Source of the DNA: Mollicutes bacterium
GTDB taxonomy: Bacteria; Bacillota_I; Bacilli_A; Izemoplasmatales; Izemoplasmataceae
Reading direction: 5' to 3'
Assembly: GCA_003558105.1 (NCBI GenBank)
Contig: PWMS01000040.1
Coordinates: 1-37,531 of the forward strand
Length of the DNA: 37,531 nt
Shown here piece after piece: positions 6,400 to 33,730 of this stretch; position 1 is the stretch's first letter; each line of letters begins with the position of its first letter. The position numbers and the translations under genes were made by a program. Below the pieces are notes generated by a model. The model saw only the letters and a list, made by a program, of their open reading frames with translations, made no database searches and was not told the origin of the DNA.

Positions 6400-6585
6400 A
6401 TGCCCCCAATAAACTTAGTTTACATCATAAATACCTAATCCACTCAATACCATTTTACCACGATTTCATACAATAAAGAATAACCACCACTTGCCAAAGA
6501 AAGCCAAACCCTTTAAAATAGGTTTATATATTGAAAATTATGATATACCGTTTCGTTTTTTCAGGCATCTAGTACCATCATGCAT

Positions 6586-6700
6586 ATTCATATAGTTTCG
6601 ATAATACGGTTCGAACGTCTCTACCTCAAAACCTTAAATTTTGAGACTATGAATGACTTTTTTTGTCATTGATAGACGTTCGAAAGAACGTCTATTTTTA
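6586..6700 (+). promoter_or_regulatory. guanine (purine-class) riboswitch with intrinsic terminator, controls guaA-guaB
   Basis: All parts of a purine aptamer are present. P1 pairs ATTCATA (6586-6592) with TATGAAT (6648-6654). P2 pairs TTCGA (6597-6601) with TCGAA (6611-6615). Its loop retains GG (6608-6609) and the P3 loop retains CC (6632-6633) for the loop-loop contact. The joining segment GTCTCTACC matches the family core and P3 is TCAAAA/TTTTGA. The base equivalent to position 74 is C6647, which specifies guanine or hypoxanthine rather than adenine; the position-51 equivalent is U, arguing against the 2'-deoxyguanosine variant. A terminator hairpin (6672-6695) follows just before the ribosome binding site. 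Guanine binding should terminate transcription. Confidence 0.92.
6672..6699 (+). terminator. riboswitch-controlled terminator before guaA
   Basis: A ten-base perfect stem (6672-6681 with 6686-6695) with a GAAA loop, then a T-run. It ends 13 bases before the guaA ATG. Its 5' arm is also fully complementary to aptamer bases 6610-6620, giving a mutually exclusive antiterminator. Confidence 0.9.
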
Positions 6701-19478: not shown

Positions 19479-19491
19479 GCTAACACAATCA

Positions 19492-19521
19492 AAAGACGGA
19501 TAAAAATTATCCGTCTTTTTT
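19492..19521 (+). terminator. terminator of the osmoprotectant transporter operon
   Basis: Twelve-base perfect stem AAAGACGGATAA/TTATCCGTCTTT (19492-19503 with 19507-19518), three-base loop, T-run. Confidence 0.92.
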
Positions 19522-19624
19522 TATGCTTTTATGATAGCGTTGTCACACCCTATATCACTATAATATAAAGAGATTCAGTCTACATAACCCTTTAGCCCGT
19601 TTTATATAATCTGCAGCAAAAAGG

Positions 19625-19653
19625 TTGTATTTACATTTTTATAGTGTTACAAT
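19625..19653 (+). promoter_or_regulatory. promoter of the histidine operon
   Basis: TTGTAT (19625-19630), 17-base spacer, TACAAT (19648-19653). It lies about 35 bases before the first leader peptide start. Confidence 0.6.
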
Positions 19654-19687
19654 GAAAAAAAATCGAAAGCCTATGGAGGCCTCGACT

Positions 19688-19738
19688 ATGAACAAAAATT
19701 ATTTAGTACATGTCCATCATTATAAAACCAAGGTTTGA
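19688..19738 (+). CDS. hisL: first his operon leader peptide (16 aa, His-rich)
   Basis: ATG at 19688 with GGAGG eight bases upstream opens a frame encoding MNKNYLVHVHHYKTKV and stopping at TGA. His codons occupy positions 8, 10 and 11, and Tyr positions 5 and 12, far above chance for so short a frame. The segment AGGTTTG at 19731-19737, overlapping the end and stop codon, can pair with CAAGCCT (19764-19770). Stalling on the His codons would leave that segment free, and reaching the stop would cover it. This is the design of leader-peptide attenuators such as enterobacterial hisL, but the peptide sequence is unrelated and I infer the role from arrangement. Confidence 0.8.
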   Translation: MNKNYLVHVHHYKTKV

Positions 19739-19852
19739 TCAAAGAACGCACGTTCTTTAGATACAAGCCTGTTTACGTATATGTAAAAATGGACTTGTAT
19801 CTACCACTAAATCATCATTAGCTGGATAGATAAGTCTATCCAGCTTTTTTTA
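19739..19852 (+). promoter_or_regulatory. first his attenuator: competing hairpins and terminator
   Basis: A small hairpin AAAGAAC/GTTCTTT (19741-19758) follows the leader stop. AGATACAAG (19759-19767) can pair with CTTGTATCT (19794-19802). The overlapping TATCTACCA (19799-19807) can instead pair with TGGATAGATA (19823-19832, one bulged base), which is part of the terminator 5' arm. Thus pairing of 19731-19737 with 19764-19770 frees the antiterminator; otherwise the terminator forms. Confidence 0.72.
19820..19851 (+). terminator. terminator of the first his attenuator
   Basis: Eleven-base perfect stem AGCTGGATAGA/TCTATCCAGCT (19820-19830 with 19835-19845), loop TAAG, then seven T. It lies inside the his leader with no gene ending just before it. 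Confidence 0.92.
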
Positions 19853-19870
19853 TACCCAGGAGGTAACAAC

Positions 19871-19930
19871 ATGAAACCCTTAACCCTTATGAACAACACT
19901 TATACCCATCATTATCATTATAAAATATAG
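19871..19930 (+). CDS. second his operon leader peptide (19 aa, His-rich)
   Basis: ATG at 19871 behind a perfect AGGAGG with seven-base spacing encodes MKPLTLMNNTYTHHYHYKI and stops at TAG. Three of the last seven residues are His and two are Tyr. It begins 20 bases after the first terminator's T-run. AGGTTTG (19929-19935) overlaps the stop and is identical to the segment at the end of leader one, as is its partner CAAGCCT (19958-19964). The module thus looks like a duplicate of the first that has diverged in its N-terminal codons. Confidence 0.8.
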   Translation: MKPLTLMNNTYTHHYHYKI

Positions 19931-20038
19931 GTTTGCTATTTAACATACTGTTAGATACAAGCCTTTATCGATGTGGATAAGTGCTTGTATCAACCGATGA
20001 TAATCAATCGAGTGGTGCACGCCGCTCGATTTTTTTTA
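19931..20038 (+). promoter_or_regulatory. second his attenuator, a diverged copy of the first
   Basis: TTAGATACAAGCCT is shared with module one (there at 19757-19770, here at 19951-19964). GATACAAGC (19954-19962) pairs with GCTTGTATC (19983-19991). A terminator follows at 20007-20037. The antiterminator pairing is less clear than in module one: only a short CGAT/ATCG match is obvious between 19995-19998 and the terminator 5' arm. Confidence 0.65.
20007..20037 (+). terminator. terminator of the second his attenuator
   Basis: ATCGAGTGG (20007-20015) pairs with CCGCTCGAT (20022-20030), including one G-U, then eight T. It ends about 20 bases before the hisZ start. Confidence 0.88.
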
Positions 20039-20058
20039 TACAAAAAAAGGAGGACATT

Positions 20059-21003
20059 ATGACATTCCCAACCCTAAACGATGCTTTAAATTATCACCAA
20101 CAAAAATTCGAAGTCATCAAAAGACTCGAAACCATCATCACCGAACAAGGCTATCAGATGATTGAACCAGCCTATTTTGAAAATTACGACCACTTCATTA
20201 AGATGCATCAACGCATCGAAAAAACCTCAATGGTAAAACTCATCGATGCCGAGGGTAATATTCGGGTTTTAAGACCGGATATCACCACTAGTATCATGAA
20301 AGACTTGATTCCTAAGTGGCATAATGGCTTAAAGCTGAAACTGTTTTACAACACCACAGTTTTTGTCAATACCAAAGCGGGCATCAAAGAACAAAAACAA
20401 TTTGGCGTTGAATACCTCGGCCCGCAAACACCGACCACCGACAGCGAGCTTATCGCGATAATCTTAGAGATATTCAACGATTTTAATCTAGCCTTCATCT
20501 TAGAAGTCTCCCATGCAGATTTCTTACATCAACTCATCGATAACCTCGCTTTAGATCATGAACAGATCGATACCTTAAAAGATATCATCTATCACAAAAA
20601 CCGCTATGCACTCAATAAATTTATTGATAAGAACCTCAATCAAAACCCTTCCCAACAAGTCCTTGCGACCCTTTTTGATTTACAGGGTACACTTGAGGTA
20701 ATAGATGACAAATTAGCTAACATCGATTTACCTGAAAATATAAAAACAACCCTAGCGCAACTAGCCAACTATCAAAGTCAGTTTAAAAACGATGCGGTAA
20801 CCTTCGATCTAAGCATGTTAAGTCAATACGACTATTACAGTGGTTTAATATTTAAAGGTTATCTGGCCAATGTGCCAAGTGCGGTATTAAATGGTGGCAG
20901 ATACAATACGCAAGCGATGGGGTATAAAAAAAGCGTGCCGGCCATCGGATTCTCATTTTCCCTTGCCGCATTGCTTCAGGAGGTTATGAAGAACAATGGA
21001 TAA
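20059..21003 (+). CDS. hisZ: ATP phosphoribosyltransferase regulatory subunit
   Basis: HisZ is a histidyl-tRNA-synthetase-like protein that lacks tRNA charging and forms a complex with short HisG, giving activity and histidine feedback. The 314-aa chain starts at ATG 20059 (AAGGAGG upstream); the frame is open back to 19981 but that part lies in the attenuator. HisRS-like class II elements are seen: RVLRPDITTSIMKDL near motif 2, QFGVEYLGP, FDLSMLSQYDYYSGLIFKGY and LNGGRYN, while the anticodon-binding C-terminus is absent. First structural gene of the operon, overlapping hisG by eight bases. Confidence 0.95.
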   Translation: MTFPTLNDALNYHQQKFEVIKRLETIITEQGYQMIEPAYFENYDHFIKMHQRIEKTSMVKLIDAEGNIRVLRPDITTSIMKDLIPKWHNGLKLKLFYNTTVFVNTKAGIKEQKQFGVEYLGPQTPTTDSELIAIILEIFNDFNLAFILEVSHADFLHQLIDNLALDHEQIDTLKDIIYHKNRYALNKFIDKNLNQNPSQQVLATLFDLQGTLEVIDDKLANIDLPENIKTTLAQLANYQSQFKNDAVTFDLSMLSQYDYYSGLIFKGYLANVPSAVLNGGRYNTQAMGYKKSVPAIGFSFSLAALLQEVMKNNG

Positions 21004-21628
21004 TAAATTAGTGATGGCCCTACCAACAGGTCGATTAGGCGATAGCGCGATTGCACGCTTACATGCAATCGGCCTAGCAAAAAAGATATCCCCAAAATCG
21101 AGAAAACTCGTCTTTGATGACGATGAAAACATTCGATATATCCTGGTCAAACCCATCGATGTCATCACCTATGTAGAAAACGGCATCGCCGATATCGGCA
21201 TCATCGGCAGCGATGTCATCTTAGAACAAGAAGCCGATGTCTATGAAATTATGGATTTAGGGTTTGGACTCTGTAAATTTTCGATAGCAGGCTTAAAAGA
21301 TCAGACTTTGTACAAACCCGATGAAGTAATCAAAGTCGCCACAAAGTATCCTAATGTCGCAAAAAAGTACTTTCAAAACAAACAACAAAAAATCGACATC
21401 ATTAAAATCAATGGCTCTGTGGAACTCGCCCCCTTGCTTGGGTTATCGAATGTGATTGTCGATATTGTGGAAACCGGCAATACGCTTAAAGCCAATGGTC
21501 TAGTCGTCATTGAAGATATGTTTGAAATCAGTGCTAAGACCATCGTCAACCGCAGTAGCTATCGTTTTAAATACCAAAAAATCACCGGATTAACAAAGCG
21601 TTTAGAAGCATCCATGGAGGTTAAATAA
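20996..21628 (+). CDS. hisG: ATP phosphoribosyltransferase, short form
   Basis: Catalyses the first step of histidine synthesis, joining ATP and PRPP. At 210 aa it is the short form without the C-terminal regulatory domain, which explains the need for HisZ encoded just before it. Seen: MALPTGRLGD at the N-terminus, GIADIGIIGSDV, and the PRPP-binding GNTLKANGLVVIE near residue 160. The ATG at 20996 lies within the last codons of hisZ; AGGAGG upstream. hisG ends exactly one base before the hisD ATG. Confidence 0.97.
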   Translation: MDNKLVMALPTGRLGDSAIARLHAIGLAKKISPKSRKLVFDDDENIRYILVKPIDVITYVENGIADIGIIGSDVILEQEADVYEIMDLGFGLCKFSIAGLKDQTLYKPDEVIKVATKYPNVAKKYFQNKQQKIDIIKINGSVELAPLLGLSNVIVDIVETGNTLKANGLVVIEDMFEISAKTIVNRSSYRFKYQKITGLTKRLEASMEVK

Positions 21629-22930
21629 ATGATAAAAATACTCAATATGAAAGAAGATACACTCGAGATTGATGCTTTGTTTAAACGCAATCAATTCGAT
21701 TATCAAGCGGTTAACCAAAACGTTGAAGCGATCATTAAAAACGTTTTAGAAAACCAAGATGACGCTTTGAGGAGCTATTCAAAAAAATTTGACAACGTCG
21801 AATTGACCGACTTCAAGGTATCCGTTCAAGAAATTGATAACGCCTTTGAAACCCTTGACAAAACGCTGATCAATGACTTAAAAAAAGCGATCGACAATAT
21901 CACCCGCTATCATGAAAAACAAGGTTATCAAAGCTTTCAATACGAAAAAGACGACGGCACCATTTTAGGTCAAAAAGTCACCCCTATAAAAACTGTGGGT
22001 CTTTATGTCCCCGGGGGTACCGCAAGTTATCCTTCGACGGTCTTGATGAATGCGATTCCCGCGCGCATTGCTGGGGTCAAAAACATTGTTATGATTACCC
22101 CACCCAAAAAGGATGGTACCATCCAACCCTCAATTTTAGTCGCCGCCAAACTCGCAGGCGTCGATACCATCTATAAACTAGGAGGTGCGCACGGGATTGC
22201 GGCTTTAGCTTATGGTACAAAAACCATTCCAAAAGTCGATAAAATTGTCGGTCCAGGCAATATTTATGTATCCATCGCCAAAAAATATCTTTACGGCAAA
22301 GTCGGCATTGATATGATTGCGGGACCGAGCGAAATTTTAATTATTGCGGATGAACAGGCCAATCCCGATTACATCGCAGCCGATTTGATGAGCCAAGCGG
22401 AACACGACACCTTAGCCAGCGCTATTCTCATCACCCCCTCTTCTGCCTTGGCAAAAAGGGTTAAAAAGGCATTATCCGCGCAGATTAAAACCTTAAGCCG
22501 TAGCGACATCATCAAACAAGCCTTAAACGATTACGGGGCCATTATTCTTAGCGAAGATTTAAAAAGTGCGGTTAATTTTTCCAACACCATCGCCCCTGAA
22601 CATCTAGAAATTTTAACCAAAGACCCCTTCAGCCTTTTAAACGATATTACAAACGCCGGTTCCATCTTCTTAGGCGAAAATACCCCTGAGCCTGTGGGGG
22701 ATTATATCGCTGGACCCAACCATACCTTACCGACCAGTGGCACCGCCCGGTTTTCTTCGCCGCTTTCAACCACGGATTTTCAAAAGAAATCTGCCTATAG
22801 TTTCTATTCCCTAAACGCCTTAAAAAACGATGCTGAGGCGATTATCAACATCGCCGATGAAGAAGGATTAACCGCCCACAGTAACGCGATTAAAGTGCGT
22901 CTAAGAAAGAAGGATGAACATGCTACCTAA
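21629..22930 (+). CDS. hisD: histidinol dehydrogenase
   Basis: Oxidises histidinol to histidine in two NAD+-dependent steps, the last two reactions of the pathway. The 433-aa protein has the family landmarks GLYVPGGTASYPSTVLMNA, GGAHGIAALAYGT, VGPGNIYV, GPSEILIIAD, SQAEHD (Zn and catalytic region) and APEHLEI. GGAGG eight bases before the ATG, which abuts the hisG stop. Start and length agree with the family. Confidence 0.98.
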   Translation: MIKILNMKEDTLEIDALFKRNQFDYQAVNQNVEAIIKNVLENQDDALRSYSKKFDNVELTDFKVSVQEIDNAFETLDKTLINDLKKAIDNITRYHEKQGYQSFQYEKDDGTILGQKVTPIKTVGLYVPGGTASYPSTVLMNAIPARIAGVKNIVMITPPKKDGTIQPSILVAAKLAGVDTIYKLGGAHGIAALAYGTKTIPKVDKIVGPGNIYVSIAKKYLYGKVGIDMIAGPSEILIIADEQANPDYIAADLMSQAEHDTLASAILITPSSALAKRVKKALSAQIKTLSRSDIIKQALNDYGAIILSEDLKSAVNFSNTIAPEHLEILTKDPFSLLNDITNAGSIFLGENTPEPVGDYIAGPNHTLPTSGTARFSSPLSTTDFQKKSAYSFYSLNALKNDAEAIINIADEEGLTAHSNAIKVRLRKKDEHAT

Positions 22931-23960
22931 AAAAAGTGTCCAAGCCTTAAACACTTATCAAACCAAAAACATCGACTACAAGGTCAAACTGGATGCCAAC
23001 GAAGCAACCAGCGATGTTTTAAAAGACTTTAAAGACAAGCTGCCCACGTCCTATTTTCGCTACCCAGACAATCATGCGCAAACCTTAAGACAAAAAGCCG
23101 CGAGCTACTACAACACAAAAGCCGAAAACATCATCGCCGGCAATGGTTCAAGTGAGATGTTGGAATTAATACTAAAAACCTACTTAGAAAAAGACGATGT
23201 CGTGCTTGGCTTTGAACCGAGTTTTACCATGTTTCGCGTCTTTACAGAAATCTATACAGGACAATATATGCCCGTTGAAGCCAACGAGCCATTTGCGTTT
23301 GATACAGAAGCTATGATCCAAGCAGCGCAAACCTACCAACCCAAAATCATCATCCTGTGTACCCCCAACAACCCCACCGGCAATATCCTTAGTGAAACAG
23401 CCATCAAGACGATCATCGAAAGTACCAACGCGTTGGTGTTGGTCGATGAGGCCTATATAGAATTTTATAACAAGCAAGCTTCCATGATTCGCTTCCTTAA
23501 GACTTATCCCCGACTCATCATCTTAAGAAGCTTATCAAAAGCCTTTGGGCTCGCGGGGATTCGCTTAGGTTTTCTTTTTTCTAATCCCGATATCATAAAA
23601 ACCCTAAACACCGTCAAATCACCTTATAACCTCAACATCCTAACCCAATCGCTTGGCATTCATGCCTTGGATGAATCTGGACGCGTTGAAGCGTATCTAA
23701 GCTTTATTAAAAAGGAGCGGGCCAAGATGTCAAAGGCACTTGAGAACCTAAATATCAGAGTCTTTCCCTCATATGCCAACTTCGTATTCTTTAAAAGTCA
23801 TCAAACCCATCTCTTTGACAAACTTTTAGACCAAGGCATTTTAATCCGAGACTTTAAAGGACCGCTTGCGTCTTATTTCCGTGTCAGTATTGGAACAACT
23901 GAAGATAACGAACAATTTATCAACGCCTTAAAGGAGGTTACCCCCGATGCGAGAGACTAA
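22920..23960 (+). CDS. hisC: histidinol-phosphate aminotransferase
   Basis: PLP-dependent class I/II aminotransferase of 346 aa converting imidazole acetol phosphate and glutamate to histidinol phosphate. CTPNNPTGN, VDEAYIEF and RSLSKAFGLAGIRLGF with the Schiff-base Lys are seen. I use ATG 22920, six bases after AAAGG, rather than ATG 22914, which touches it. It overlaps hisD by 11 bases and hisB by 14. HisC-like enzymes in Gram-positive bacteria may also transaminate prephenate or phenylpyruvate; that would matter here because no separate aromatic aminotransferase is in the window (inference). Confidence 0.96.
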   Translation: MLPKKSVQALNTYQTKNIDYKVKLDANEATSDVLKDFKDKLPTSYFRYPDNHAQTLRQKAASYYNTKAENIIAGNGSSEMLELILKTYLEKDDVVLGFEPSFTMFRVFTEIYTGQYMPVEANEPFAFDTEAMIQAAQTYQPKIIILCTPNNPTGNILSETAIKTIIESTNALVLVDEAYIEFYNKQASMIRFLKTYPRLIILRSLSKAFGLAGIRLGFLFSNPDIIKTLNTVKSPYNLNILTQSLGIHALDESGRVEAYLSFIKKERAKMSKALENLNIRVFPSYANFVFFKSHQTHLFDKLLDQGILIRDFKGPLASYFRVSIGTTEDNEQFINALKEVTPDARD

Positions 23961-24525
23961 ACTAAACCGCAACACCAAAGAAACCCAAATTCAACTATAT
24001 CTAAATATCGATGGCACGCGCCAAATCGATGTTGATACAAAAATTCCATTTTTTGACCATATGTTAACGTTGATGGCCTTTCATGGTAACTTTGATTTAA
24101 ACATCCAATGCGATGGCGATATCGACGTCGATGATCATCATACCATTGAAGATGTTGGGTTGGTGCTTGGGGATGCCATCAAAGAAATCATCAACACCAA
24201 AAAAGGCTTAAGACGCTATAGCTCCATCTTTATGCCGATGGATGAGAGCCTAACACGCATCGTTTTAGATATTTCTAACCGTCCATACTTAGGTTATCGC
24301 ATGCGCCTAAACCGCGAAAAAGTTGGGACGATGGATACACAAAACGTACAAGAGTTTTTCAAAGCCCTGATCGCAAATGCGCGTTTGACCCTCCATATCG
24401 ACTTGCTTTATGGTGAGAATGATCATCACAAAATTGAAGCTGTCTTTAAAGCTTTCGGTAAAGCTTTAAAAGAAGCTACAACCATCGAGGGTAAGTCGGT
24501 GAATTCCAGCAAGGGTGTGTTATAG
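23947..24525 (+). CDS. hisB: imidazoleglycerol-phosphate dehydratase
   Basis: Mn-dependent dehydratase of 192 aa, monofunctional (no phosphatase domain), converting IGP to imidazole acetol phosphate. The metal-binding motifs DDHHTIEDVGLVLGDA (about 60-75) and NDHHKIEAVFKAFGKAL (about 157-174) are intact, as is FFDHML near the N-terminus. AGGAGG lies inside the end of hisC. The stop of hisB directly precedes the hisH ATG. The separate histidinol phosphatase at the end of the operon supplies the activity missing from this short form. Confidence 0.98.
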   Translation: MRETKLNRNTKETQIQLYLNIDGTRQIDVDTKIPFFDHMLTLMAFHGNFDLNIQCDGDIDVDDHHTIEDVGLVLGDAIKEIINTKKGLRRYSSIFMPMDESLTRIVLDISNRPYLGYRMRLNREKVGTMDTQNVQEFFKALIANARLTLHIDLLYGENDHHKIEAVFKAFGKALKEATTIEGKSVNSSKGVL

Positions 24526-25131
24526 ATGAATGTGATTCTCGATTATGATGTGGGGAACCTCGATTCTGTCAAACGCGGTTTTGAACGCGTCGGGATTAAA
24601 AGTGTAATCTCAAAAGACCCCATTATCATTCAAGCGGCCACCGCTTTAATATTGCCAGGGGTCGGCGCTTTCAATGAAGCGATGAAATCTTTAAGACAAT
24701 CTGGCTTGATTCCTTATATATTTGAACACATCAAGCAAAACAAACCGCTCCTAGGGATATGTCTAGGAATGCAGCTGCTTTATGAGGCCAGTGAAGAAAA
24801 CGGCTACACCGAAGGTCTAGGGTTATTAAAAGGGACGATAAAACCCCTGAATATACGTTTAAAAGTCCCTCACATGGGGTGGAATCAACTCATCTTTCAA
24901 AAGCCTGATCATACCTTATTAAAATACATTCAAGAACATGATTACGTCTATTTTGTGCATGCTTATTACGCCGCAACGAATCTAGATGACGTCATCGCTT
25001 ACGCCGATTATGAAACAAAGATACCCGCCATCGTCGCCAAGGGCCCTATTTATGCGACCCAGTTTCATCCCGAAAAAAGCGCGGCGGTCGGCCTAAAAAT
25101 TTTACAAGCATTCAAAGAGGTGATTTCATGA
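24526..25131 (+). CDS. hisH: imidazole glycerol phosphate synthase, glutamine amidotransferase subunit
   Basis: A 201-aa class I amidotransferase delivering ammonia from glutamine to HisF. Nucleophile Cys is in LLGICLGMQLLYE (about residue 80), and the His-Glu pair in ATQFHPEKS (about 182-184). The oxyanion region is LPGVGAF and the HisF-facing PHMGWNQL is present. It abuts hisB (TAG followed by ATG) and overlaps hisA by four bases (ATGA). Confidence 0.97.
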   Translation: MNVILDYDVGNLDSVKRGFERVGIKSVISKDPIIIQAATALILPGVGAFNEAMKSLRQSGLIPYIFEHIKQNKPLLGICLGMQLLYEASEENGYTEGLGLLKGTIKPLNIRLKVPHMGWNQLIFQKPDHTLLKYIQEHDYVYFVHAYYAATNLDDVIAYADYETKIPAIVAKGPIYATQFHPEKSAAVGLKILQAFKEVIS

Positions 25132-25856
25132 AACTATACCCGGCCATCGATTTAAAACACAACCGCTGTGTCCGTTTAAGCCAAGGTAAGTTCGAACATG
25201 AAAAAGTCTATGACCAAGACCCTTTCAAGGTCGCAAAAAGATGGTTAGATGAAGGTGCCACTTTCTTACACATCATCGATTTAGACGGGGCCAAAGACAA
25301 CGACATGATAAACTTACCCGCCATTAAAAACATCAATACCTTATCGATTCCCATGCAAGTCGGTGGGGGCATACGCTCACTAAAGCGAATCGAGACGCTT
25401 CTAAAAGAAGGCATCAACCGCGTGATTATTGGGACCATGGCCCTCGATAATATGGCCATGTTAAAAACAGCCTTAAAACGATTCCCCGGGCAAATCATCG
25501 TATCGATCGATGCTAAAAAAGGCAAGGTCTTAAGCCATGGCTGGCAAAAAGATACCAATATATCCGCACTAAACCTTGCCTCAACCTTAGAGAATATCGG
25601 CATCAAAACCATCATTTATACCGATATTGAAAAAGATGGGATGCTTAAAGGTCCTAATCTAGAAGCCTATAAAACCTTGGTTGAAAAGACCAACCTTGAA
25701 ATTATCGCAGCTGGGGGTATCACTACCCTAGACGATCTAAAATCTTTAGAGGCCATTGGGGTCTTTGGGGCGATAATTGGTAAAGCGCTATATGAAGAAA
25801 AAATTGATTTAAAGGAGGCATTACAATGCTTGCAAGACGCATCATCCCGTGCCTAG
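25128..25856 (+). CDS. hisA: ProFAR isomerase (HisA)
   Basis: TIM-barrel isomerase of 242 aa converting ProFAR to PRFAR. Catalytic Asp at the end of strand 1 is in [14 protein letters not shown] (residue 7), the second acid in [10 protein letters not shown]. Phosphate-binding loops are QVGGGIRSL and [11 protein letters not shown]. Four-base overlap with hisH and a 31-base overlap with hisF, the largest overlap in the operon. No sign of the dual HisA/TrpF enzyme type could be judged from sequence alone. Confidence 0.96.
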
Positions 25857-26584
25857 ATGTCCGAGATGGCAGAGTCGTCAAAGGGCAAAGATTTCAAGCC
25901 ATAAAAGACGTAGAAGACCCCGCAAAACTCGGAAAAATCTATAGCGAAGAAGGCGCCGATGAATTGGTCTTCTACGACATCACAGCCTCAAGTGAACAAC
26001 GTGAGATATCCTTAGAATTTATCGAAAAAGTCGCCGCTACCTTACAAATTCCCTTCTGTGTTGGAGGCGGCATCAAAACCATTCAAGATTTTGGACGCAT
26101 CTTAAGAAAAGGCGCTGACAAAGTCTCTATTAATTCCGCGGCGATCTTAAATCCACAGCTAATCAAACAAGCAGCCGAGGTTTATGGTTCACAGTGCGTG
26201 GTACTTTCCATCGACGTGAAACAAGACCCCGATCAAAGCTACCGTGTCTATCTTAACGGCGGCAGACAAAAAACCGATCTTGAAGCTATCGCGTGGGCCA
26301 AAAAAGGCGTCGCCTTAGGCGCAGGCGAACTCGTCATCAACAGCATGGATCAAGACGGTATGAAAAACGGCTATGATATCGCACTCTTAAAACAGATTAC
26401 CGATGTAGTCAATGTCCCTGTGATAGCCTCAGGCGGCGCAGGCAAACTTTCTCACTTTAAAGACGTCATTCAAAAAGCCAACGTCGATGGCATCTTAGCC
26501 GCCTCTGTTTTCCACTACGGCGAGATCAAAATTAACGATTTAAAAGATTACTTATCGAAACAAGACATAACCATGAGAATTTAA
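25826..26584 (+). CDS. hisF: imidazole glycerol phosphate synthase, cyclase subunit
   Basis: TIM-barrel cyclase of 252 aa that uses ammonia from HisH to make IGP and AICAR. Catalytic Asp11 is in [15 protein letters not shown], and the second Asp is in VLSIDVKQD (about 130). CVGGGIKT and ASGGAGKL bind phosphates. AGGAGG for this gene lies inside the 3' end of hisA. Its by-product AICAR feeds purine synthesis, a link with the guaA-guaB operon upstream. Confidence 0.98.
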
Positions 26585-26595
26585 GGAGGCACATC

Positions 26596-27231
26596 ATGCA
26601 AAAAACGATAGAAACATTCGATTTAAAACAACTCACCTTCAACCAAGATAATCTCATCCCCGTCATCGTACAAGACATCCGTTCAAAAGCGGTATTGATG
26701 ATGGCTTATATGAATAAAGAAGCCTTACAAAAAACCCTAGACACCAAAGAAGCTACCTATTTCAGCCGATCAAGACAAACGCTATGGAAAAAAGGACAAA
26801 CCAGTGGCAACACCCAAAGCGTTGAAGCTTTAAGCTATGATTGTGACGCCGATGCGGTATTAATGCAAGTCAAACAACGCGGTGTTGCGTGTCACACCAA
26901 CAAAATGAGCTGTTTTCACAATCCCATCTTCAACGAAGATAAAACCCTTGATTCCAATATTTTATTTTCTTTATATAATCTTATTAAAGAAAGAAAAAAC
27001 CGGCCTAAAGCTGGTTCTTATACCGAATACCTCTTTCAAGAAGGCCTTGATAAAATCTTAAAGAAAGTCGGCGAAGAAAGCAGTGAAGTCATCATCGCCG
27101 CCAAAAACCAATCCCCCGAAGAAATGACAAATGAAATCAGCGATTTACTATACCATCTCATCGTTTTAATGGTCAATGAAAACCTTGAATTCGACGAGGT
27201 CTTAAATGAATTAAACGAAAGGCGGAAATAA
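26596..27231 (+). CDS. hisIE: bifunctional phosphoribosyl-AMP cyclohydrolase/phosphoribosyl-ATP pyrophosphatase
   Basis: A 211-aa fusion performing steps two and three of the pathway. The N-terminal HisI part (about 1-115) has YMNKEAL, SRSRQTLWKKG and the Zn/Mg site DCDADAVLMQVKQRG followed by ACHTNKMSCF. The C-terminal HisE part (about 120-211) is an all-helical MazG-like domain with KVGEESSEVIIAAKN and NEISDLLYHLIVLM. AAGGAGG precedes ATG 26596, 11 bases after hisF. Fusion order is the usual I-E. Confidence 0.98.
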   Translation: MQKTIETFDLKQLTFNQDNLIPVIVQDIRSKAVLMMAYMNKEALQKTLDTKEATYFSRSRQTLWKKGQTSGNTQSVEALSYDCDADAVLMQVKQRGVACHTNKMSCFHNPIFNEDKTLDSNILFSLYNLIKERKNRPKAGSYTEYLFQEGLDKILKKVGEESSEVIIAAKNQSPEEMTNEISDLLYHLIVLMVNENLEFDEVLNELNERRK

Positions 27232-27232
27232 C

Positions 27233-28039
27233 ATGAAACGCCCGCTCATCGACCAACATGTTCATACCAATGCTTCGCCAGATGCCAATCGGGATGCGAC
27301 CATGACAGCGTATATCGATAAGGCTAAGAAAATGGGTATACCCGGCGTTGTCTTCACCGATCACGTCGATATGGATACCCCCGTCGAACTTTTCAAAACC
27401 TTCCCCGATTATCAAACCTATAGCAAAAATATCAAACCCCTTAATACCCCCGATTTTTTCGTCCGTATGGGGGTGGAAATAGGCTATCAACCCCACATTC
27501 AAGAAAAAATAGAAACATTCATTCAAAGCCATCCCTTTGATTTTGTGATCTGTTCGATTCATCTCGGGGATAAACTCGATTTTTATAACGGCGATTTCTT
27601 TATCGGTAAAACCCAACAAGAAGCCTATCAACGTTATTTTGAGTTGGTGTTAGAATCGGTAGAAAACTTTCAGGATTACGAGGTTTTTGGCCATCTTGAT
27701 TATATTATTCGCTATGGCGATTTTGAAGATAAAGCCTTTGATATCGATGATTATCAACCCTTGATCGATACCATTTTAAGCACCATTATCAAAAATGGTA
27801 AAGGCATCGAAGTCAATACCTCTGGGATTCGCTACAACCTCGGTGTGATGCATCCAAACCTTGCCATTTTAAAACGTTATAAAGCCCTTGGGGGTAAAAT
27901 CATCACCCTTGGGTCAGATGCGCATAAGGTTGATGATTTTTACAGCGATTTCGAACACGCCATCGCTTTGATTTTAAAAGCTGGATTCCGTTATATCACT
28001 GAATTTAAAGCCCGACAACCCTATTTCATTGAACTATAA
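27233..28039 (+). CDS. hisK: histidinol-phosphatase, PHP family
   Basis: Metal-dependent PHP phosphoesterase of 268 aa, removing phosphate from histidinol phosphate. DQHVHTNASPDAN provides the first HxH ligands, FTDHVD the next, HLGDKLDFY and GHLDYIIRYGD the middle ligands, and LGSDAHKVDDF the last Asp-His pair. Length and motifs agree with HisK/HisJ histidinol phosphatases of Gram-positive bacteria. It starts two bases after the hisIE stop and completes the pathway: every step from PRPP to histidine is encoded from 20059 to here. I see no terminator after it. Confidence 0.95.
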   Translation: MKRPLIDQHVHTNASPDANRDATMTAYIDKAKKMGIPGVVFTDHVDMDTPVELFKTFPDYQTYSKNIKPLNTPDFFVRMGVEIGYQPHIQEKIETFIQSHPFDFVICSIHLGDKLDFYNGDFFIGKTQQEAYQRYFELVLESVENFQDYEVFGHLDYIIRYGDFEDKAFDIDDYQPLIDTILSTIIKNGKGIEVNTSGIRYNLGVMHPNLAILKRYKALGGKIITLGSDAHKVDDFYSDFEHAIALILKAGFRYITEFKARQPYFIEL

Positions 28040-28135: not shown

Positions 28136-28180
28136 ATGTTTAAATTAACCTTAGTTGTCTATTATTACGCATATCGATAA
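28136..28180 (+). CDS. aromatic operon leader peptide with Tyr run (14 aa)
   Basis: ATG 28136, with AGGTG seven bases upstream, encodes MFKLTLVVYYYAYR and a TAA stop. Four of 14 codons are Tyr (TAT TAT TAC, then TAT) and one is Phe. The bases right at and after the stop (AAAAGGAT, 28179-28186) can pair with two downstream segments, one of them in the terminator. Located just upstream of DAHP synthase and prephenate dehydrogenase, it fits a ribosome-stalling sensor of charged tRNA-Tyr. I do not know a described homologue. Confidence 0.78.
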   Translation: MFKLTLVVYYYAYR

Positions 28181-28278
28181 AAGGATTGCCGCGCGCACTC
28201 CTTTTTGACTCATGCGAAAAGGCAGGCGACCTAACAAAGATATTTTATCCTTGGGAGAGACGCCCAAGGATTTTTTTA
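28181..28278 (+). promoter_or_regulatory. aromatic operon attenuator
   Basis: AAGGAT (28181-28186) is complementary to ATCCTT (28247-28252) in the terminator 5' arm, a possible antiterminator. Competing helices are AAAAGGA (28179-28185) with TCCTTTT (28199-28205), and CCTTTT (28200-28205) with AAAAGG (28217-28222). GTTAGGT (28121-28127), at the leader ribosome binding site, is complementary to ACCTAAC (28229-28235). Confidence 0.65.
28247..28277 (+). terminator. terminator in the aromatic operon leader
   Basis: ATCCTTGGG (28247-28255) pairs with CCCAAGGAT (28263-28271), seven-base loop, then seven T. It stands 40 bases before the DAHP synthase start. Confidence 0.92.
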
Positions 28279-33471: not shown

Positions 33472-33504
33472 AAGATAAATTGATGAGTAGAATTAGTATG
33501 TTTT

Positions 33505-33730
33505 AACATCGTTTTAAGAGAGCCGATGGTGGTGTGAATCGGTAACGCTTGTTTTAACTGAATGGATCTACGAGAGGACATCTGAAAAAAGTAAGATGTC
33601 ACGGGTGCTTCCGTTACAAAGCTAAGGTATGATTGTACCTGAATTAAGCGCTTTTTATAAGCGAAATATGAGGTGGCACCACGGCGAAAACAACCGTCCT
33701 CTACACAGTTTTTGTGTAGGGGATTTTTTT
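33505..33730 (+). promoter_or_regulatory. tryptophan T-box riboswitch upstream of trpB
   Basis: Stem I begins with AGAGAGCCGATGG and GGTGTGAAT apical elements. The specifier is read as TGG (Trp) at 33563-33565 within CTGAATGGATC. The T-box sequence is AGGTGGCACCACGG (33671-33684); its UGGC bulge (33674-33677) would pair with an ACCA-type end whose discriminator base is G, as expected for bacterial tRNA-Trp. A terminator at 33697-33729 completes it. Uncharged tRNA-Trp should prevent termination and turn trpB on. Confidence 0.92.
33697..33729 (+). terminator. T-box terminator before trpB
   Basis: Eleven-base stem (33697-33707 with 33713-33723, one G-U), five-base loop, then seven T. Confidence 0.92.

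Follow-up and report, generated by a model that had tools for sequence, protein, structure and literature searches.

Two ribosome-mediated attenuators, which would be copies of one ancestral element, appear to be arranged in series between a single promoter and the his operon in the 37,531-nucleotide stretch of DNA analysed here (the window), which comes from the 1.56-Mb, 83% complete genome of an uncultured member of the class Bacilli. The reading that these tandem elements control the hisZ operon according to the supply of histidine, with an additional off state in which leader codons pair with a downstream segment, is given a probability of about 80%. Positions 19625-20058 contain, in this order, a promoter with an extended −10 box, a leader followed by hairpins and a terminator, the same arrangement for a second time and then hisZGDCBHAFIEJ (table 1). 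Two short His-rich ORFs with ribosome binding sites had been recognized upstream of hisZ in an earlier note on this DNA and were confirmed as MNKNYLVHVHHYKTKV (16 residues) and MKPLTLMNNTYTHHYHYKI (19 residues), both with a Shine-Dalgarno (SD) sequence, as was the T-run terminator that it had placed after each of them; a terminator scan gave five sites, with 0.6 expected in shuffles. The sequence TTAGATACAAGCCT, which it had described as common to the two modules, is an exact 14-mer repeat and is accompanied by several weaker ones, 186-201 bases apart, and AGGTTTG is indeed found at both leader stop codons. TG-N-TATAAT-like boxes are also present just 5' of leader 1 in relatives.

Table 1. Features of the his leader region and of neighbouring elements (positions in the window).
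Feature	Position	Strand	Description
promoter	19625-19653	+	−35 TTGTAT 19625-19630, 17-nt spacer, extended −10 TGT-TACAAT ending at 19653
leader 1	19675-19738	+	SD GGAGG 19675-19679; ORF MNKNYLVHVHHYKTKV 19688-19738, ATG 19688, TGA 19736-19738; counterparts in relatives
segment A1 (within leader 1)	19704-19717	+	pairs with D1, one mismatch; duplex −14.0 kcal/mol; group-wide covariation
segment B1 (AGGTTTG)	19731-19737	+	overlaps leader 1 stop; pairs with C1
segment C1 (TTAGATACAAGCCT)	19757-19770	+	partner B1 or D1
conserved T-then-G, module 1	19774-19783		candidate pause site
segment D1 (ATGGACTTGTATCTACC)	19789-19805	+	partner C1, A1 or E1
terminator 1	19820-19852	+	E1 19820-19830, 4-nt loop, F1 19835-19845, T-run; 11 bp, −16.4 kcal/mol
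leader 2	19858-19930	+	SD AGGAGG 19858-19863; ORF MKPLTLMNNTYTHHYHYKI 19871-19930, ATG 19871, TAG 19928-19930; counterparts in eight other genomes
segment A2 (within leader 2)	19897-19910	+	pairs with 5' flank of D2 (19970-19983); inverted repeat; duplex −14.8 kcal/mol
segment B2 (AGGTTTG)	19929-19935	+	overlaps leader 2 stop; pairs with C2
segment C2 (TTAGATACAAGCCT)	19951-19964	+	identical to C1; partner B2 or D2
conserved T-then-G, module 2	19968-19977		candidate pause site
segment D2 (ATAAGTGCTTGTATCAACC)	19977-19995	+	partner C2, A2 or E2
terminator 2	20006-20037	+	E2 20006-20016, loop, F2 20021-20031, T-run; 11 bp, −15.3 kcal/mol
his operon hisZ-G-D-C-B-H-A-F-IE-J	20059-28039	+	NCBIfam matches for all ten genes; hisZ ATG 20059, SD AAGGAGG 20047-20053
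Tyr-rich leader ORF (MFKLTLVVYYYAYR, YYYAY)	28136-28180		before aroF-tyrA-aroBAC
terminator after Tyr-rich leader	28247-28271		

The competing hairpins that had been proposed for each module are present, but the picture had to be corrected to one of six pairing segments (A-F), one of which, A, is found inside the leader coding sequence, immediately before the His codons. Segment C (in its general form GATACAAGCCT) is able to pair with B or D, and segment D (in general CTTGTATCTA) with C, with A or with E, the 5' arm of the terminator. In the proposed mechanism, a ribosome that has completed the leader and sits on its stop codon would cover B, with formation of C:D and E:F and the end of transcription, while scarcity of charged His-tRNA would make the ribosome wait on the His codons, with formation of B:C and D:E in place of the terminator, so that RNA polymerase continues. 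If the leader is not translated, A would pair with D, enclosing B:C, E:F would still be possible and transcription would also end; a ribosome stalled on the His codons would cover A and lift this block. Since RNA polymerase must pass both gates, the expected readthrough is the product of two His-dependent probabilities.

The helices were evaluated by comparing the duplex energy of each segment with the partner of its own module and with partners swapped from other modules. Across 46 modules, the preference for the own partner in B:C, C:D, D:E and E:F was equalled by none of 2000 permutations (relatedness ignored). An E. coli-like A:B helix, tested in the same way, showed no preference and was dropped. 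The assignment of B:C plus D:E to the antiterminating form and of C:D plus E:F to the terminating form, an arrangement shared with the his attenuator of enterobacteria, is supported by this comparison, and the mutually exclusive helices were found both to covary and to switch in constrained folding, in which the ribosome footprint was held single-stranded at the stage when E, but not F, has been transcribed. For a ribosome on the stop codon, the probability of D:C was 0.98 in module 1 and 0.93 in module 2, and for one on the His codons that of D:E was 0.72 and 0.53, respectively. At the earlier stage, when E has yet to be transcribed, C:D is preferred to B:C at equilibrium, including when the ribosome is on the His codons, and the switch would therefore need B:C to be formed first, as during transcription. 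In 37 modules, a conserved T (83%) and G (62%) occupy the positions 20 and 21 bases downstream from where C begins, which places them 10-11 bases beyond the B:C helix. Hairpin-stabilized RNA polymerase pauses use spacing of this size, and a pause at the conserved T-G, which is possible, would let the ribosome catch up. It was also observed that D of module 1 (19794-19809) and C of module 2 (19946-19961) are 88% complementary over 16 nt, and this might have an effect in transcripts that read through.

The A:D helix, in which leader codons would pair with D around B:C, is new here, covaries and held in genomes unseen until then. Its mean duplex energy in first or single modules is −12.6 kcal/mol versus −6.7 kcal/mol for a control stretch farther upstream. 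When pairing was counted with D anchored on its stem core, 77% of the counted cells were paired in the fixed register versus 31-45% on sliding by 1-3 bases, and shuffled rows matched the observed pairing in 5 of 2000 cases and the two-sided changes in 1 of 2000 (relatedness ignored). In twelve sequences of family f12, new to the analysis yet related to a few already used, the values were 73% versus 33-43%, with 12 of 4000 permutations reaching the observed level (relatedness ignored). A:D is missing in five of the 28 first or single modules, and there is no A:D signal in family f15. The single mismatch of A1:D1 in the window (CAT where relatives have CAA) is due to an extra His codon in leader 1, and the second modules of the window and of its nearest relatives do contain A.

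The conserved Val-Gln-Val/Ala residues before the His run could alternatively be kept for the sake of the peptide, through a nascent-peptide effect, with A:D as a by-product. Some nascent peptides do act on the ribosome, and the three residues vary rather little among first and single modules. However, the Val/Ala codon is among the covarying positions, its changes (GTC, GCA) being matched by changes in D (GGAC, GTGC), so that what is conserved seems to be the pairing and not the identity of the peptide; moreover, the pairing often extends into the His codons, and module 2 of the window has other residues here (TYTHHYHY), with a different stretch of its leader pairing with the D flank. A peptide effect is considered unlikely on these grounds. 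The A:D helix predicts termination for an untranslated leader, through a topology unlike that of the E. coli A:B pairing. In the folding model without a ribosome and with E made, D is shared in module 1 between A (0.38) and E (0.56), and is mostly with E in module 2 (0.69, with 0.05 for A), so that for the window itself the prediction of an off state in the absence of translation is not a firm one. In the ribosome-free state A or C occupies D in 15 of the 28 first or single modules versus one of the nine second modules, and the off state is better supported by these predictions for the former as a group than for the latter.

The distribution of the element was approached by looking for HisZ in 61 genomes and inspecting the upstream regions, which revealed short His-rich ORFs at the expected place in most hisZ-bearing members of the family. 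A covariance model (R1) was built from 22 modules of the window and its relatives; it scores the window modules, both part of the training set, with E values of 7.8e-22 and 1.4e-19, but also matches elements before hisZ in genomes outside that set. With R1 the element was found in 20 of 49 genomes of the window's family. Single elements were detected in one further family of the same order and in several more across the class; in these R1 searches of order and class, no genome outside the window's family gave two modules. Two weak class-level matches (L248 and L249) are without a His leader and look like chance. A loose DNA-pattern search of genome contigs gave, among the matches inspected, two true elements, one in Mollicutes bacterium CSSed10_211m (PWKX01000036), of the same genus as the window, and one in Acholeplasmatales DLM2.Bin112 (RECF01000064), of the same family; HisZ sequence patterns run against genome contigs found no relatives, and a plasmid search found distant HisZ only. 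All 46 modules examined have a His-rich ORF with an SD and a His run, ending with its stop codon near B. R1 itself includes the His codons, so that the independent evidence consists of frame, start, stop and SD. The ORFs, whose translation is predicted, stand ahead of the operon that corresponds to their codons. Their His codons are CAT in 146 of 175 cases versus 70 of 118 in the genes of the window. In one relative (L185), approximately 700 bases, possibly a group II intron, separate the attenuator from hisZ (after position 1055). R1 describes an RNA family that has no counterpart in Rfam 15 and would be a marker of control by histidine, and at least once by tyrosine, in numerous Bacilli that have not been cultured.

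In the comparison of genomes to which the earlier note had pointed, nine from three genera (G000-G004, G007, G022, G032 and G067) have two His ORFs in tandem, with covarying stems, ahead of hisZ, and many more have a single element. Retention of both modules argues against the proposal that a single module is in control of the operon while its duplicate is carried along as a passenger. The second modules, moreover, keep SD, His run and terminator, and when taken alone the nine of them preserve the preference for the own partner in B:C, C:D, D:E and E:F (equalled by 4, 0, 0 and 0 of 2000 permutations, respectively; relatedness ignored). On the other hand, one module suffices in 11 of the 20 element-bearing genomes of the family, and some second modules are low-scoring (E = 3.1e-7 and 2.4e-7) and on long branches. 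A passenger role is judged quite improbable. The prediction of the earlier note, that two gates in series would strengthen repression multiplicatively and make the response steeper, is reasonable as arithmetic: for independent gates the readthrough probabilities would be multiplied and the log-sensitivities summed. We infer that such independence, along with termination and the response to histidine, would apply in cells. Race models of attenuation have already explained how more control codons give a steeper response (PMC1183508).

With respect to the origin of the doubling, the duplication suggested by the earlier note gained support in that the modules align over their length and the AU test does not reject a topology with every second module in one clade (p = 0.353). 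There may thus have been just one ancient duplication, but the tree is weak. Within this overall weak tree the second module of the window groups with strong support with those of another genus, g8, and the window HisZ (20059-21003) is 56% and 50% identical to HisZ of g8 versus 36-40% to those of its own genus. Transfer of the operon together with its leader is a possible event that would explain the g8 affinity of both.

It could also be argued that the leaders sense histidine and tyrosine jointly, given the Tyr codons in or beside the His runs and the aro/tyr operon next to them. Across the 46 modules Tyr is the commonest residue that breaks the runs, accounting for seven of the nine non-His residues inside them versus 3.6% of the residues encoded by the window genes; it directly follows the run in seven modules outside f15, and aroF-tyrA-aroBAC lies directly downstream of the his operon. 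However, TAT and TAC are one base away from CAT and CAC, the run is free of Tyr in many homologues, and the aro operon has a candidate leader and terminator of its own (table 1), so that joint sensing retains a slight chance. The Tyr-rich leader before aroF-tyrA-aroBAC is a candidate tyrosine attenuator; YYY leaders are found at the same place in several relatives, and the one in the window gives no match to R1. A match to R1 was instead obtained (E = 6.1e-6) at L250 (G479:C33:2623-2778), where a leader with Tyr codons, MKNLNLHNQTYFYYYAFR (YFYYY), precedes an aroB-like gene and, judged from its sequence, has the scaffold of the His leaders with Tyr codons in exchange for those of His. Whether the leader scaffold of the Bacilli is in general duplicable and codon-exchangeable, with A:D as the default off state unlocked by a stalled ribosome, two copies for histidine and codons swapped to those of tyrosine, is an evenly balanced question.

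Control of the element as a T-box, a riboswitch or a protein-dependent leader is scarcely credible, in spite of the T-boxes reported for the his operons of some relatives (PMC9413887), of the T-box elsewhere in the window and of conserved bases in the loop after C that pairing does not explain, since the leader has no match to any Rfam covariance model (RF00514, His_leader, gave none at the gathering score nor up to E = 1 over 19480-20070, and the T-box model RF00230 none over the leader) and the His-rich ORF ends at B in every module. The T-box of the window (33474-33704) precedes trpB, and a purine riboswitch is found at 6568-6669; the genome therefore uses T-boxes alongside leader peptides.

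In the comparison with known systems, the earlier note had taken two His attenuators in a genome of Gram-positive type as unusual. Leader-peptide attenuation of his genes is not, because single His-leader attenuators are already known in Erysipelotrichales, Peptostreptococcaceae and the Bacillus cereus group, as described by Ashniev et al. 2022 (PMC9413887) and by Naville and Gautheret 2010 (PMC2965389). What stands is the doubling, as no duplicated leader-peptide attenuators in series for one amino acid, nor the A:D design, were found in the openly accessible literature searched. The published Firmicutes leaders resemble the window element in the Gram-positive background, the His-rich leader upstream of his genes, the terminator plus antiterminator and the lack of an RF00514 match, and the element agrees with the definition of Ashniev et al. 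2022 (His-rich leader, his operon, terminator and antiterminator). They are, however, reported as single, and the main texts of the two articles contain neither a doubled element nor an A:D helix. R1, which was built without the alignments published in 2022, also detects single elements in a different order of the same class. In Staphylococcus aureus (PMC5794164), an experimentally studied ilv leader peptide provides a further case of attenuation of an amino acid operon in the class Bacilli, but for branched-chain amino acids and not for histidine.

Tandem attenuators for different signals are known from Salmonella mgtCBR, called singular by its authors (PMC3641672), in which two leader ORFs in series each act as an attenuator as proposed here. 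The mgtCBR leaders, however, respond to ATP and proline and have no intrinsic terminators, whereas both window leaders are His-rich copies on one scaffold with intrinsic terminators. Two attenuators in tandem for a single amino acid would offer a natural test of how serial gates shape a response, with a leak that multiplies and log-sensitivities that add, and the one-gate and two-gate forms of related genomes could be compared with a simple reporter. The enterobacterial his attenuator of E. coli and Salmonella (PMC10989985) is present in single copy, and the window element has no sequence match to its model RF00514. Nonetheless, the two share the leader His codons and the B:C plus D:E and C:D plus E:F forms. 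They would differ in how termination is ensured, since the terminating form in E. coli uses A:B, whereas in the window element A is predicted to pair with D around B:C. If true, A:D pairing would solve in another way the old problem of keeping an attenuator off while its leader is untranslated.
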